A stretch of DNA of 64,000 bases from an uncultured Bacteroidia bacterium (GTDB lineage Bacteria > Bacteroidota > Bacteroidia > Bacteroidales > UBA932). The first letter of the stretch is position 1. Every line of letters begins with the position of its first letter. Position numbers and translations under genes: made by a program. Under the pieces are notes generated by a model. It saw nothing but the letters and a program-made list of their open reading frames with translations, ran no database searches and was not told the origin of the DNA. Location of the stretch: NCBI GenBank assembly GCA_902779785.1, contig CACZDC010000010.1, forward strand, positions 41,103 to 105,102. Direction: 5' to 3'. Positions 7,413 to 62,734 of the stretch are shown here, piece after piece.

Positions 7413-7559
7413 TTAAGAAACTGCCGCGCGGCTTTTGCCCACGAGAATGACACCGCCGACGACAAGAGCTGATGCAAGCACTTTCTGCCAGCTGAGGGCG
7501 TCGAGACCTGCCCAGATGCTCACGATGGCTGCGATGATGGGCTGGAGGTAGGAATACAT
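7413..7559 (-). pseudogene. 3'-terminal fragment of an EamA transporter gene
   Basis: The minus strand reads MYSYLQPIIAAIVSIWAGLD and continues to ...LVGKSRAAVS before a stop. Its first 44 residues are identical to the C-terminus of the intact EamA transporter at 12471-13373. Over the aligned 132 bases I count nine differences, all synonymous. The homology begins and ends abruptly (about 7427-7561 against 12488-12622). It is therefore a fragment of a second, once functional copy, perhaps from a related strain, and not a freshly copied piece. Confidence 0.85.
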
Positions 7560-7685
7560 ACCGTAAAACACTGAAATCCGGCGCCAGGTCCTTCTTTATG
7601 ACCCGAAGGTCCTTCAAACAGGAAAGTTTCATCTCATTTATGACATCATTGAAAATCAATTGATTTACTAATCTGTCAGTATCAG

Positions 7686-12470: not shown

Positions 12471-13373
12471 TCACTCTCTCTTCAAGCCGCGGCTTTTGCC
12501 CACGAGAATGACACCGCCGACGACGAGGGCGGAGGCGAGGACTTTCTGCCAGCTGAGGGCGTCGAGGCCTGCCCAGATGCTCACGATGGCGGCAATGATG
12601 GGCTGGAGGTAGGAATACATACTCACCAGCGTGGGCCGGATGAATTTCTGGCCGTATGGAATCAGGAAATAGGCGACGAAGGTCGCGAAGAAAATCAGGT
12701 AGCCTATCTCCCAGCGGACGTCCGAGGGGATGGACGCGAAGTCGGTATGGACAAGGCCCACGATGGAAACAGGCAGGGAGAGGACCAGGGAGAAGAGGAA
12801 GCTCCATTTCATAAAGTTCACGACGCTGTATTTCGATATCAGCGGGCGGAAGAGGCCAAGGTAGAGCGAGAAGCTGAGGCTGTTGACAAGCAGCAGGACT
12901 ACGCCCCAGGGGGAAGTGGCCGCCGCGCCTCCTTCGTGGACAGAATTGAAGATAAGGAAAAGGATTCCGGCGAAACTGAGGGCCACTCCCCCGGCCTTCT
13001 TCCCGGTAATCGGCTCGCCCAGGAAGAGAAAGGCGAAAATCATCGTGAATATGGGCCCAAGGGTGCCTATTATGGCCGTGTCAATGGCGGAGGTCATCGT
13101 TATGGCCATAAGGAAGGTCATCTGCGGCACGAACAGGCCCACGAAGGAGGCCGCGGCGATTTTCAGATAGTCCCCCTTATCGATTTTCTCCCTCGGAGTG
13201 AAAATGGACAGGGCCCAGAACAGGAGGCTTGCACCTATGGCCCTAAGAGTGAAAAGGACGTATGGCGAGATAGTCTCAGAATTGGCTATATCCTTACAGA
13301 AGACGAGGTTAAGGCCGAATATCGTGTATGCGGCGGCTATGGAAAAATGTCCCTTCAGAGCGTTCTTTTCCAT
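12471..13373 (-). CDS. EamA/DMT-superfamily transporter
   Basis: 300 residues with ten hydrophobic segments in two repeats of five, the usual drug/metabolite transporter layout. The first repeat starts HFSIAAAYTIFGLNLVFCK, the second near GVVLLLVNSLSFSLYLGLF and ends with SIWAGLDALSWQKVLASALV followed by GGVILVGKSR. Such inner-membrane carriers export or import small metabolites; the substrate cannot be read from sequence. Its start is 2 bp after the stop of the AlkZ-like gene, so it is in an operon ybjQ-alkZ-like-eamA. A C-terminal fragment of a second copy lies at 7413-7559. Confidence 0.85.
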   Translation of the reverse strand: MEKNALKGHFSIAAAYTIFGLNLVFCKDIANSETISPYVLFTLRAIGASLLFWALSIFTPREKIDKGDYLKIAAASFVGLFVPQMTFLMAITMTSAIDTAIIGTLGPIFTMIFAFLFLGEPITGKKAGGVALSFAGILFLIFNSVHEGGAAATSPWGVVLLLVNSLSFSLYLGLFRPLISKYSVVNFMKWSFLFSLVLSLPVSIVGLVHTDFASIPSDVRWEIGYLIFFATFVAYFLIPYGQKFIRPTLVSMYSYLQPIIAAIVSIWAGLDALSWQKVLASALVVGGVILVGKSRGLKRE

Positions 13374-26264: not shown

Positions 26265-26289
26265 GCCCGCCGCCGGGTGAAGCCGGATG

Positions 26290-26402
26290 GGCAGGGGCTT
26301 CGAAACGGCGTGGCCACCCTCGGCCGCGTTAGAGGGAGGGGCCCAACCGTCGGGTTGGGAGGGATAGCCCCGAAGGGGCGTACCGGGACGAAGCCCCCTG
26401 CC
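26290..26402. repeat. GC-rich inverted repeat with inner hairpins
   Basis: Outer arms GGCAGGGGCTTCG (26290-26302) and CGAAGCCCCCTGCC (26389-26402), with one bulged C. Inside lie CCAACC-GTC-GGGTTGG and GCCCC-GAA-GGGGC. The block has no gene. I recall similar sequences scattered in Bacteroidales genomes, but this was not checked. Confidence 0.55.
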
Positions 26403-26464
26403 TGGAGGCGAAAACCTGCCCGCGGCTCACTGATCCACGGCACCGCCTACTGTTTGGGCGTCCT

Positions 26465-26644
26465 CCGTGCCGCCGAATGCCTGTTTCCCGGCACGGATTG
26501 CTACTTTGCCCACCTCGGTGCCGGCGAATGCCCGTTTCCCGGTACGGACCCGCGGTTTTGGAGCGTCGGTGCCCGCAAATGCCTGTTTCCCGGCACGGAT
26601 CACTGTTTTGAGACCATCGGTGCCGTCAACTGCCCTCCGGCACG
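26465..26644. repeat. Four-copy tandem repeat with a 51-bp period
   Basis: Units start at 26465, 26516, 26567 and 26618, exactly 51 bp apart. Each unit holds an imperfect palindrome of about 32 bp, e.g. CCGTGCCG ... CGGCACGG around GAATGCCTGTTTCC; the fourth is shortened. The spacers between palindromes vary. The same palindrome with the same 51-bp period occurs inverted inside the coding sequence at 49467-49602. The last copy ends 6 bp before the rnfA stop codon. Confidence 0.85.
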
Positions 26645-26650
26645 CCCAAA

Positions 26651-27253
26651 CTATTTCACCATTCCGCTGAAGCCCATAAAGGCGAGGGCGAGAATACCGA
26701 CGCTCACCAAAGCAATCGGAACGCCTTTGAATGCCTTGGGGACATCGCTGAGGGCGAGATGCTCGCGGATACCGGCGAAAATCACCATCGCGAGGCCATA
26801 GCCGAGCGATGTGGCGAAGGCATAGACCAGGGACTCGCCGAGATTCAGCAGGTGAGCCTCCCCGCCGAAGGTGAATTCTTTGGTCACAACAGTGATCGCA
26901 ACACCGAGCACGGCGCAGTTGGTGGTGATCAGCGGAAGGAAGATTCCCAGAGCCTGATAAAGCGCCGGAGAGACCTTCTTGAGCACGATTTCAACCATCT
27001 GAACCAGAGCCGCGATCACAAGGATGAAGGCTATGGTCTGCAGGAATTCCAGTTGGAAAGGCACCAGCAGATAATGGTTGATCAGCCAGGTGACAAGCGT
27101 CGCGAGAGTTATCACGAAGCAGACTGCCATAGACATTCCGCTGGCGGTGGACAGCTTGTTGGAAACTCCGATGAAGGGGCAGATTCCGAGGAACTGCGCA
27201 AGGACGATGTTATTGACGAATATCGCCGAGATTATAATCAGGAAGTATTCCAT
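26651..27253 (-). CDS. rnfA: Rnf complex subunit RnfA
   Basis: 200 residues, six membrane helices. NNIVLAQFLGICPFIGVSNK near the start and LPLITTNCAVLGVAI in the middle (each with a conserved Cys in a half-helix pair that binds the intramembrane iron) identify RnfA. The complex couples ferredoxin:NAD+ electron transfer to Na+ or H+ export. Last gene of the operon rnfBCDGEA. Confidence 0.95.
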   Translation of the reverse strand: MEYFLIIISAIFVNNIVLAQFLGICPFIGVSNKLSTASGMSMAVCFVITLATLVTWLINHYLLVPFQLEFLQTIAFILVIAALVQMVEIVLKKVSPALYQALGIFLPLITTNCAVLGVAITVVTKEFTFGGEAHLLNLGESLVYAFATSLGYGLAMVIFAGIREHLALSDVPKAFKGVPIALVSVGILALAFMGFSGMVK

Positions 27254-48483: not shown

Positions 48484-48531
48484 GCAGATTTTTTCCGAAA
48501 TTTGTATTATGCACTTGAAAAAACCGGGAGA

Positions 48532-49128
48532 GTGAAACGTTTTGCCTTCAACTTGCATCTTATTACTTGGAGTTCACCCAGTGATTCTCCGGGAGGAGCC
48601 CCGTCGTGGGAAAGACGCATTGAAGAATGCAGGAAAGGTGACAGGATGGCCCAAAAGGCCGTTTTCGACGCACTCGCACCCAGGATGAAGGCCGTATGTC
48701 TGCGCTATGTCGGAGATAACGACACAGCCGACGACGTCCTCCAGGACGGTTTTGTCACTCTGTTCTCCAAAATTGACAGTTACTCGGGGGTAGGATCCTT
48801 CGAGGGCTGGGCACGCAAGATCTTTGTCAATACCGCCCTGATGTATCTGCGAAAGACGGACGCCCTTCGCCTCAGCGACGACATCTCCGAAGCCCGGAGT
48901 CTGTCGGACCCTGAGCCGGGAGTCATCCAGAACATAGGCTACAAGGAACTGCTGAGGCTAATCGCCAAGCTTCCTCCCGATGCCAGGACCGTCTTCAATA
49001 TGTATGTAGTAGAAGGTTATTCCCATAAAGAGATTGCCGAGACTCTCGGCTTTACGGAAGCCACTTCCCGTTCCAAACTGCAGAGGGCCAGGTTGCGGTT
49101 ACAAGAATTGATCAAGCAAGAATTATGA
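48532..49128 (+). CDS. ECF-type RNA polymerase sigma factor
   Basis: About 198 residues from GTG 48532; no ATG lies before the conserved part. Region 2 is RMAQKAVFDALAPRMKAVCL to DDVLQDGFVTLFSKIDSYSG and FEGWARKIFVNTALMYLRK, region 4 is LRLIAKLPPDARTVFNMYVV and GYSHKEIAETLGFTEATSRS. The stop overlaps the next gene (4 bp), whose membrane-anchored N-terminus may regulate it. A TTG further upstream (48502) is also possible. Confidence 0.92.
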   Translation: MKRFAFNLHLITWSSPSDSPGGAPSWERRIEECRKGDRMAQKAVFDALAPRMKAVCLRYVGDNDTADDVLQDGFVTLFSKIDSYSGVGSFEGWARKIFVNTALMYLRKTDALRLSDDISEARSLSDPEPGVIQNIGYKELLRLIAKLPPDARTVFNMYVVEGYSHKEIAETLGFTEATSRSKLQRARLRLQELIKQEL

Positions 49129-50363
49129 ACGAAAGCAAGTTTGATTCAGAAATAAAACGCATCCTTTCCGGTGCCGAAGCGCCTGTCTCCCCATCTGCCT
49201 GGGAAGGCATCAGTTCCCGGCTTCCGGCGAAAAGGCACGTCCTGCCCCTATGGCCATATATGGCCGCGGCCGGGATTGCCGCCGCCCTTGCAGCAGGAGT
49301 ATTCCTGTTTAAGCCGGGGGCAGCTCCGGAAAAGGATGCGACGGCAGATGTAATTATCTCTCAGGAAATTCCGTCTATTTCGCAGCAAATCGAAGCGGCG
49401 GCGGAGAATTCCGCCGTCGCCAAGACGGAGTCCCTCGGCGGCAGGGGCACTGCCAGATCCGTACGCTCCGTGCCGGGAAATGCCGTTTCTGCGGCACCGA
49501 CCGAGGTTTCAGTGGCATCCGTGCCGGGAAACACCGCTTTGGCGGCACCGACCGAGGTTTCAGCGCCGTCCGTGCCGGGAAACACCGATTTGGCGGCACC
49601 GACCGAGGCGGCTGCCACAGAGGGGCAGGCCGTCACCCAAAGCGGCAGCGACGACGACCGCCTCCTTGCACTACTGGCCGCAAATGAAGAAAAGTCCGCC
49701 CCAAAACGCATCAGGCTCACTGCCTCCGCCAACCTGCAGGCCGCTGGCAGGCAGACTACGGCCGGAAGGACCATTATGCGAGCCCCTTCTGCCAAAGCCG
49801 AAAAAGCCGAATTCACCAGAGGGGTCACCCGCGAAGATCCGGAATACCATTTCTCAATCCCGGTGACCGCCGGAATCGGCCTTCGCTACAACTTCACCAA
49901 GCGCTGGAGCATCGGCAGCGGGCTGCAGTACACCAATATGAGCCGATCTTTCACCGGAGACTACACCGAATATCAGGATGACGGAGACGTTTTCTCCCTC
50001 GAAAACACCGACATCAACAATATGCAGCACTGGCTGGGCATTCCCCTGAATGTCTATTATGAAATCCTGCCCGACAGCAAGTGGAGCGTACACTGCTTTG
50101 CAGGCGCTGATGTGGAATACCTCCTGCAGAACCATTATCTTGTACACACCAGCGGAAATGACATCCACGTTTCCGAATCCGGACACGGTTTACAGTTTTC
50201 GGTGGGCGCAGGTATCGGCGTAGAATACCGCCTCACCCCCAGCTTCGGACTGTTCCTGGATCCGAGCATCCGCTACTATTTCGACAATCACCAGCCCCGC
50301 TCCGTCAGAACCATACAACCCCTGCGGATGGACTTCCAGGCAGGCGTAAGATTCTCCCTCTGA
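49125..50363 (+). CDS. Membrane-anchored protein with C-terminal outer-membrane barrel domain, coupled to the ECF sigma factor
   Basis: 412 residues. Residues 1-40 are cytoplasmic (SPSAWEGISSRLPAKRH), 44-66 a membrane helix, then a long Ala/Pro/Thr-rich linker, then from about 240 a beta-barrel-like domain (VTAGIGLRYNFTKRWSIGSG ... LDPSIRYYFDNH) as in OmpW/PorT-like proteins. Such a head, helix and barrel arrangement next to a sigma factor is known in Bacteroidetes, where the N-terminus may act as an anti-sigma. The linker (about 114-163) is encoded by the 51-bp repeat, SVPGNxxxAAPTEVS three times. Confidence 0.75.
   Translation: MNESKFDSEIKRILSGAEAPVSPSAWEGISSRLPAKRHVLPLWPYMAAAGIAAALAAGVFLFKPGAAPEKDATADVIISQEIPSISQQIEAAAENSAVAKTESLGGRGTARSVRSVPGNAVSAAPTEVSVASVPGNTALAAPTEVSAPSVPGNTDLAAPTEAAATEGQAVTQSGSDDDRLLALLAANEEKSAPKRIRLTASANLQAAGRQTTAGRTIMRAPSAKAEKAEFTRGVTREDPEYHFSIPVTAGIGLRYNFTKRWSIGSGLQYTNMSRSFTGDYTEYQDDGDVFSLENTDINNMQHWLGIPLNVYYEILPDSKWSVHCFAGADVEYLLQNHYLVHTSGNDIHVSESGHGLQFSVGAGIGVEYRLTPSFGLFLDPSIRYYFDNHQPRSVRTIQPLRMDFQAGVRFSL
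49467..49602. repeat. Three copies of the 51-bp-period repeat inside a coding sequence
   Basis: Copies start at 49467, 49518 and 49569, each beginning TCCGTGCCGGGAAA and ending GGCGGCACCGACCGAGG or close. They are the reverse complement of the units at 26465-26644 (CGGTGCCGCC ... TTTCCCGGCACGGA). The period is a multiple of three, so each copy adds 17 residues without breaking the frame. Confidence 0.85.
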
Positions 50364-61705: not shown

Positions 61706-62734
61706 TTAGTGGTCAAGCAGTTGTGTGACGGCGACGGGAAGCAGTTCGCGGATGATGACCTCGCCCGGGACGACGGGAAGCACGAAAGCGACCTTCGATC
61801 CGGTCGATTTCTTGTCCTTGCCCATCGCTTCGGCAAGCACGTCGAGGGGATAGGGGCATTCGACCGGCAGAGCGCAGGCCTTGAAATCGGCCTCAAGACG
61901 CGCTGCAAGGCTCTTTCCGCTCTCCGGAGTCTTCGACAGGCCGAGGGAGTCAGAGAGGCGGGCGGCGAGGATTATGCCTATGGACACGGCCTCCCCGTGG
62001 GCGATGTCGTCACCGCGAAGGCGGGCTTCGTGTTCGATGGCGTGGGCGAAAGTATGGCCGAGATTCAGCTTGCGGCGTTCTCCCGATTCGTAGAGGTCGC
62101 GGGAGACGATTGCTTCCTTTATGGATGCGGCACGAAGGATCAATTCACCGACTGGCTTCCCGGCGGAAAGGGCTCCGACAGCCTCGGAGTAAGCGTCGGC
62201 GTCAGCTATCAGGAAGGTTTTGAGAAGCTCCGCAGCACCGCAGCGGAACTCCCTGTCCGGCAGAGTCTTAAGGACTTCCGGGCATATAAAGGTGTACTCC
62301 GGAAGGACTATTGTGCCAAGCATATTCTTGTAGCCGTCCAGATTGACTCCGGTCTTTCCGCCGACGGCCGCATCGACCTGGGCGAGAAGGGTCGTCGGAA
62401 GATTGGCATAGCGCACTCCCCTCTTGTAAATGGATGCGGCGAAACCGGCCATATCGCTCGTGATTCCGCCTCCGACGGCAAGCACCAGCGCCCGTCGGGA
62501 GGCCCCGGCCTCAAGCAGGCTGCGGCAGATTCCGAGGACCGTGTCTATGGTCTTGTACTCTTCGGAGGCCTCTATGGCTATGGTCCCTTTTACGGAGGGG
62601 ATGGCCGCTATGACCTCGGAGGCTGCCCAGGCGACGTTCTCATCGTAGACAAGGTATATTTCCTCCTCATTTCCGAGGTAGGAGGCCGCTTCTCTGAGCG
62701 AGCTTAGACTTACTGTCCGGCGTTTTGCTTCCAT
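61706..62734 (-). CDS. aroB: 3-dehydroquinate synthase
   Basis: 342 residues. LAVGGGITSDMAGFAASIYK binds NAD, LPTTLLAQVDAAVGGKTGVN and NMLGTIVLPEYTFICPEVLK are family motifs, and NLGHTFAHAIEH has the zinc histidines. It makes 3-dehydroquinate, the substrate of the first domain of the downstream fusion (79 bp away), so the pair forms a shikimate unit. Confidence 0.96.
   Translation of the reverse strand: MEAKRRTVSLSSLREAASYLGNEEEIYLVYDENVAWAASEVIAAIPSVKGTIAIEASEEYKTIDTVLGICRSLLEAGASRRALVLAVGGGITSDMAGFAASIYKRGVRYANLPTTLLAQVDAAVGGKTGVNLDGYKNMLGTIVLPEYTFICPEVLKTLPDREFRCGAAELLKTFLIADADAYSEAVGALSAGKPVGELILRAASIKEAIVSRDLYESGERRKLNLGHTFAHAIEHEARLRGDDIAHGEAVSIGIILAARLSDSLGLSKTPESGKSLAARLEADFKACALPVECPYPLDVLAEAMGKDKKSTGSKVAFVLPVVPGEVIIRELLPVAVTQLLDH

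Follow-up and report, generated by a model that had tools for sequence, protein, structure and literature searches.

The window analysed here is a 64,000-bp stretch (contig C10, positions 41103-105102) of G000, a 2.78-Mb assembly in 126 contigs whose genus, judged from its sequence, is probably Candidatus Cryptobacteroides. Two arrays of a 51-bp unit are found in the window. The first is intergenic. Three units, each with a 34-bp palindromic core and a 17-nt linker, occupy positions 26447-26599 on the minus strand (cores at 26464-26497, 26515-26548 and 26566-26599). A fourth, degenerate core (26617-26650, minus strand) lies directly 3' of the stop codon of a 200-aa minus-strand ORF (26651-27253), which carries the putative label rnfA from the original prediction. 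The closest named matches of this rnfA-labelled protein (94% identity and below) come from ruminant Bacteroidales MAGs, and records bearing the name Candidatus Cryptobacteroides match it at 83-84%. The second array consists of three units lying in frame (SVPGNAVSAAPTEVSVA, SVPGNTALAAPTEVSAP and SVPGNTDLAAPTEAAAT; 49467-49619, probably minus strand) inside a plus-strand gene (49125-50363). The spacing originally reported is exact in both arrays, with core starts at 26464, 26515, 26566 and 26617 in the first and at 49467, 49518 and 49569 in the second, and Tandem Repeats Finder assigns a period of 51 to each. As the unit is 51 bp long, each in-gene copy adds 17 residues, as had also been proposed.

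The palindrome has a consensus of about TCSGTGCCGgGAAACnGGCATTTGGCGGCACGGA. The repeat had been described as palindromic; the palindrome is imperfect, and 24 of 36 units have a mismatch at column pair 3/32. The similarity between units extends into the 17-nt linker, and a common consensus is found in 26 internal linkers. Because the linkers are conserved and are not unrelated spacers, a CRISPR array was ruled out.

The gene at 49125-50363 encodes an Ala/Pro/Thr-rich linker and an outer-membrane beta-barrel (PF13568); on our reading of the sequence, a membrane segment precedes the linker. The gene shares 4 bp with the 3' end of ORF 48502-49128, which encodes a putative sigma factor. The intergenic and in-gene arrays belong to one family, as had been suggested. 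A BLAST alignment of locus L038 (1918-2056) with window positions 49604-49466 spans 139 bp, linkers included (75.5% identity, E-value: 1.6e-21), and a covariance model built without the in-gene units finds them with E-values of 1.8e-6 to 7.8e-4. The reverse orientation assigned to the in-gene units is likely, although the indicators are divided. The BLAST alignment and the two internal linkers place the units on the minus strand (6.7 and 11.8 bits, where 17-mers from this gene have a median of -12.1), whereas the intergenic-unit model gives the cores a small advantage on the plus strand (37.9 and 35.2 bits; minus strand 33.0, 32.1 and 27.9 bits). This disagreement over orientation could be taken to mean that the in-gene copy is an independently evolved Ala/Pro/Thr linker with a chance resemblance to the repeat, as could the hypervariability of the linker among relatives and the fact that any repeat within a reading frame would be expected to have a period that is a multiple of three. 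Given the length of the BLAST alignment and the recovery of the units by a model made without them, such an origin is hardly credible.

Relatives of the 49125-50363 protein were collected as 30 loci, the first being the query itself. The linker could be read in 14 of the 29 other loci (in the other 15 the host frame was not found or the frame was wrong), and the SVPGN unit is in none of these 14 readable linkers. The nearest relative (G034, 52% identity) has a linker of other sequence. The array was therefore gained, or replaced an older linker, in the lineage of G000.

Copies in the genome and in the genus

The original prediction of a dispersed repeat would have failed had the genome held no further copies and the two arrays been explained by chance similarity of GC-rich sequence. 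Further copies exist. A 14-base probe allowing up to two mismatches matched G000 140 times, compared with 25 matches for a reversed control. A first covariance model, built from 36 intergenic units, gave 54 rows at an E-value of 0.01 or less, five of them on the three in-gene units, from which we count 52 units in 22 clusters. The earlier observation is confirmed and chance is excluded. Among 51 units of the first-fetched loci, adjacent units are spaced by 51 bp in 28 of 30 pairs, the remaining pairs being spaced by 50 and 53 bp. It had further been proposed that the repeat can take the form of a hairpin array or of coding sequence. Both forms are present, but the coding form accounts for just one of the 22 clusters: the other 21 lie outside any recognizable gene (placed by eye on ORF tables, with ORFs running through arrays counted as spurious), the exception being the gene at 49125-50363.

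Members of the GTAG and CGTC REP superfamilies are palindromes of 20-40 bp present in many, mainly intergenic, copies, a description that fits the 34-bp core and its 52 copies. The unpaired GTAG or CGTC tag expected at one foot of such palindromes is not a regular feature of the unit. Within 10 nt of the palindrome, GTAG is found in one of 48 units on the 5' side and in none on the 3' side, and CGTC in four of 48 on each side.

Other repeats were seen in the same intergenic regions. A second family adjoins the intergenic array of the window, where positions 26272-26412 align with the intergenic segment L041:1903-2048 over 148 bp (82% identity). In L040, L041, L048 and L051 the arrays have upstream of them another repeated block, the ends of which are palindromic (about CCGCGTTGAC...GTCAACGCGG). 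As such a block precedes several arrays, the intergenic regions concerned resemble mosaics in which several repeat families are combined. Elsewhere in the window, positions 7427-7561 and 12488-12622 are 135-bp copies with 93% identity.

The search for copies in relatives depended on how the unit was described. A pattern search of genome contigs, a set that possibly lacks G000 itself, gave no matches, and neither did a pattern with one mismatch in 60 other genomes of the genus. Both searches would have been misleading without a structure model. The first covariance model gave five weak single matches in 399 other genomes of the genus, a count that is too low because the stricter filters used kept only 20 of the 54 rows from G000. 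In three of these five genomes the match is accompanied by a second palindrome at a distance of 51 bp, and in a fourth by a degenerate one. A second model (R2) was built from 17 units, nine of them from these five genomes, and matched 22 of 40 further genomes at an E-value of 0.01 or less, several of them in 51-bp series. Fewer than one of the 40 would be expected by chance, as far as the E-values, which are rough for both models, can indicate. The R2 matches in L236 and L240, which are presumably Mrp-like, look like chance, with one unit each and no partner seen. The layout of the repeat thus recurs in the genus, but its exact letters were found only in G000.

Pairing was compared with shuffled alignments at two levels. 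Within G000 it does not exceed the shuffles (87.3% compared with 88.2%). Across species, 90.2% of cells are paired in the 17-unit alignment, compared with 77.4% after shuffling, and the covariation score is 0.336, compared with 0.127 (0 of 500 shuffles as high); this alignment leans towards structure because most of its units were found with a paired model.

Such covariation of the arms between species would be expected if the intergenic arrays were RNA elements, for example 3' hairpins acting in mRNA stability or termination, under selection at many genes. The position of some arrays directly 3' of stop codons, as at 26650 and in L043, fits this idea as well. It is nevertheless very unlikely. 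No Rfam family reaches its gathering score in 17 loci, covariation within G000 is not above the shuffles, and the in-frame copies inside enzymes (described below) would be left unexplained. Selection at the rnfA-labelled gene is also difficult to reconcile with its relatives: the array 3' of this gene is absent in the five near relatives inspected (L181, L182, L185, L188 and L190), and 713 kb of loci from relatives contain no unit that scores at least 14 bits. In 80 named rnfA loci, R2 gave eight matches with E-values of up to 1, the best of which (E-value: 0.074) is, like the others, not convincing.

A RAYT-like transposase and the 51-bp unit

The two largest arrays of G000, with nine and six units, flank a 304-codon gene (C1:149359-150270) in one orientation. 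A RAYT-like gene had been suggested as a possible partner of the repeat, and this is such a gene. Its product resembles the REP-associated tyrosine transposase profile NF047646 of NCBIfam (E-value: 1.7e-4; 21.5 bits, cut-off 80) and Pfam PF01797 (Y1_Tnp; E-value: 0.011; 16.3 bits, cut-off 23). Because both scores are below the curated cut-offs, the protein is called RAYT-like. The HUH residues H70 and H72 (HxH) and Y127 are invariant in all 24 aligned members of the family, as are the Arg and Asn of a YxxRN motif. From its place, Y127 would be the catalytic tyrosine.

The structure predicted by AlphaFold (pLDDT 86.2) has 4er8, the complex of a REP-associated tyrosine transposase with a REP hairpin, as its best Foldseek match in the PDB (probability 1.0, E-value: 2e-3, TM score 0.55 by target length), consistent with a Y1/HUH fold; there is no Foldseek match at an E-value of 0.001 or less. 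Among the 50 matches listed, those after 4er8 are largely IS200/IS605-type transposases, with some unrelated folds. A phmmer search found no solved relative of the protein.

At an E-value of 0.001 or less, the transposase family is present in 245 of 300 genomes of the genus, G000 included and distant members counted. It was found in none of 245 genomes outside the genus (from an order sample of 247), a search in which a loose first look preceded scoring, so very distant relatives could be missed. G000 has a second family member on contig C15, which is 79% identical to that of G034 and has its own 51-bp repeat on one side. Five other Y1 genes of G000 (L095-L099; four over the Pfam cut-off and one below it) were considered as owners of the unit and rejected, there being no unit nearby. 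One of them, in L099, is flanked by its own 93-bp double-hairpin repeats (1636-1728 and 2731-2823, 97% identity), and those in L096 and L097 have flanking 108-bp repeats (77% and 73%).

The association was examined in 33 transposase loci. Thirty of them were retrieved through similarity of the encoded protein (L248-L277, where L248 is the locus of the query), and the order search added three (L278-L280). The palindrome search used pairing as its sole criterion and presupposed no particular letters. Thirteen of the 33 loci contain palindrome pairs at a distance of 51 bp (34 pairs, six of them from the locus of G000 itself), and 20 have no such strict pair. At 45-50 or 52-57 bp there are no pairs in the 33 loci, nor are there any after dinucleotide shuffling. 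A first scan of 30 loci over distances of 36-89 bp gave two more pairs, at 62 and 73 bp, and none in 58 control loci (220 kb). The period of the flanking repeats was tallied in the 24 loci used for the protein alignment; the other nine (L252, L255, L261, L268, L269, L276, L277, L278 and L280) were omitted as cut off, interrupted by an internal stop, unclear in their place in the locus, distant or not needed. The best period is 51 in 17 of the 24 loci, 52 in two, 50 in two and another value in three, and in 13 of the 17 period-51 loci the match is better than the highest among the control loci (33 of 51). A period of 51 or 52 is found in none of 26 rnfA control loci.

The palindrome arms differ between species (for example, TTTGTTCCG, GTCGGCCAC, CTAAAGCAC and CGCGGGCAC) but keep their ability to pair, and arm identity tracks transposase identity. 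For the arms read by eye, which could be done in 18 of the 24 loci, the Mantel correlation is 0.77 (0 of 5000 permutations as high). It is 0.66 for 15 loci (0 of 5000) and 0.59 for the 12 loci of the closer clade (2 of 5000).

These results bear on whether the units are an ordinary minisatellite spread by replication slippage and recombination, with a transposase lying between two arrays by chance. Tandem structure and whole-unit differences in copy number are what slippage would produce, and the mobility of the unit is itself deduced rather than observed. Slippage would not, however, disperse units to 22 places, and a chance neighbour would explain neither why loci chosen by transposase homology are enriched in palindrome pairs at 51 bp and at none of the neighbouring distances, nor why the letters of the arms follow the transposase protein. 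A minisatellite is therefore considered unlikely. The reading that we favour, with a probability of about 0.85, is that the 51-bp unit is a REP-like non-autonomous element of the RAYT-like HUH/tyrosine transposase encoded at C1:149359-150270, a member of a family found only in this genus.

Units lying in frame within conserved genes

Rickettsia palindromic elements (RPE) insert in frame in genes, and copies of the 51-bp unit were found within open frames in other species of the genus. The 22 best R2 loci, one per genome, were considered, 20 of which were inspected for open frames (L236 and L240 were left out). Five of the 22 matches lie in open frames of conserved genes: aroB (G005 and G037), an hddC-like gene (G028), queH (G032) and mnmE (G004, E-value: 0.0099). 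In addition, the first model matched an in-frame unit in a glycosyltransferase 2 gene (G220). The weakest case is mnmE, in which the second palindrome was read as 52 bp away. Where a solved structure was compared, the units coincide with extra sequence or with a break in the alignment. In the HddC-like protein, residues that are direct neighbours in 5xhw are separated by a stretch of 88 residues, which includes the 17-residue units. Around its unit MnmE is longer than 3gee by 16 residues, distributed over four pieces, and the AroB units fall at a break in the alignment with 5eks. The HddC-like protein of G028 (L230:1242-2792) also carries another inserted stretch (CHSERSEES...).

The aroB genes of the genus were collected with a query that itself holds units, giving 31 loops including that of the window, of which 28 were readable (L283, L284 and L302 were not). 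With a palindrome defined as having at least seven of nine arm bases paired, palindromes at 51-bp spacing are present in six of the 28 loops (G005, G037, G057, G085, G183 and G264). By this definition 30 aroB loci contain 11 pairs at 51 bp, compared with a mean of 0.57 at other distances; when eight of nine bases are demanded, the numbers become too small for a conclusion (two pairs at 51 bp and one each at 46, 52 and 67 bp). The AroB loop has 94 residues in G037 and 77 in G005, a difference of exactly 17 residues, or one unit, between two species. The aroB gene of G000 (61706-62734, minus strand) has a short loop of 61 residues without a unit. In the AlphaFold model of the G037 protein most of the enzyme is predicted with confidence, and residues 194-212 have a pLDDT under 50. 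The aroB loop of G139 (L288) has palindromes at 26- and 52-bp spacing and is perhaps a degenerate array.

The units begin in the same codon phase in the four cases in which they run along the gene, and the cases taken as opposite-strand use other phases. It had been asked whether copies in genes always keep the frame. All those found do so, but they were recognized by their open frames, and copies that break a gene would therefore have been missed. A step of 51 bp corresponds to 17 codons, so the gain or loss of units causes no frameshift. The family as a whole does not keep to multiples of three, as some relatives use steps of 50 or 52 bp (52 bp in the flanking repeats of transposase loci L253 and L266, for example), which would break a frame.

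In G000, four of the six reading frames contain no stop codon in 45-47 of 48 units, compared with about 28 in mononucleotide shuffles, but all 48 units belong to a single family. When 17 families are taken together, the open frames number 81 of 102, a total reached in 0 of 1000 mononucleotide and 27 of 1000 dinucleotide randomizations. Selection for stop-free units is not claimed, because the dinucleotide null is beaten weakly.

Relation to known systems and proposed model

The arrangement in G000 is most readily compared with the REP/RAYT (TnpA-REP, or REPtron) systems. As described in passages of PMC8266576 and PMC6006769, these combine many short, mainly intergenic palindromes with an HUH/Tyr transposase gene, and repeat and transposase diverge together. 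The G000 system differs from those described there in its direct tandem arrays, its 51-bp step and the absence of a regular GTAG foot. Its transposase also scores far below the RAYT profile cut-off. The subclass motifs in a table passage of PMC6006769 end in NP, NQ or EQ, and none of them has the Arg of YxxRN.

REPs inside reading frames have been described for the GTAG and CGTC families, in which clusters encode 43-82 residues (PMC3733652). According to that paper, the GTAG repeats are tied to RAYTs, the CGTC repeats are not associated with transposase genes, and head-to-head dimers predominate. The G000 repeats are, by contrast, direct, without a regular tag and associated with a transposase. 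The RPE share with the 51-bp unit a palindromic element lying in frame in genes. They occur in other bacteria, and in the portion of PMC3733652 that cites them no fixed 17-codon tandem step is described; the regular CGTC tag is absent from the G000 repeat. PARCEL elements are likewise tandem palindromic DNA units that code, in this case for a 25-residue motif in ORFs lacking assigned functions, and the abstract (PMC2996958) mentions no tie to a RAYT. The G000 unit differs in being 51 bp long, encoding 17 rather than 25 residues and being mostly non-coding in its own genome. A literature search whose reach excluded most subscription papers and all bioRxiv preprints found no description of this 51-bp repeat.

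We read the repeat and its transposase as a RAYT/REP system that is specific to the genus and whose repeats are direct, tandem and spaced by 17 codons. The model would operate as follows. The transposase would recognize the 34-bp palindrome when it is folded into a hairpin in single-stranded DNA and, by analogy with known TnpA-REP proteins, would cut and join units. Strand transfer or slippage would then lengthen or shorten the arrays, always by whole units. An array without stops that arrives in a loop or linker able to tolerate it would add or lose 17 residues and persist there, of which the linker of the gene at 49125-50363 may be an example. The deduced part of this model comprises the mobility of the unit, the recognition of its hairpin and the reason for its 51-bp step.

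The consequences for proteins can be put forward more tentatively, at somewhat less than even odds. A genus-specific RAYT-like family may have settled on a 51-bp step that makes its arrays a source of in-frame insertions, such that, across the genus, the same AroB loop and further conserved proteins are lengthened and shortened by 17 residues at a time, and some of these changes are kept as useful or harmless. Repeats between genes and repeats inside proteins are linked here to one transposase family that is common in its genus. Species with differently lettered versions of one layout would form a natural set for the study of co-evolution between transposase and hairpin, and the system may make it possible to follow the gain and loss of 17-residue segments in proteins.
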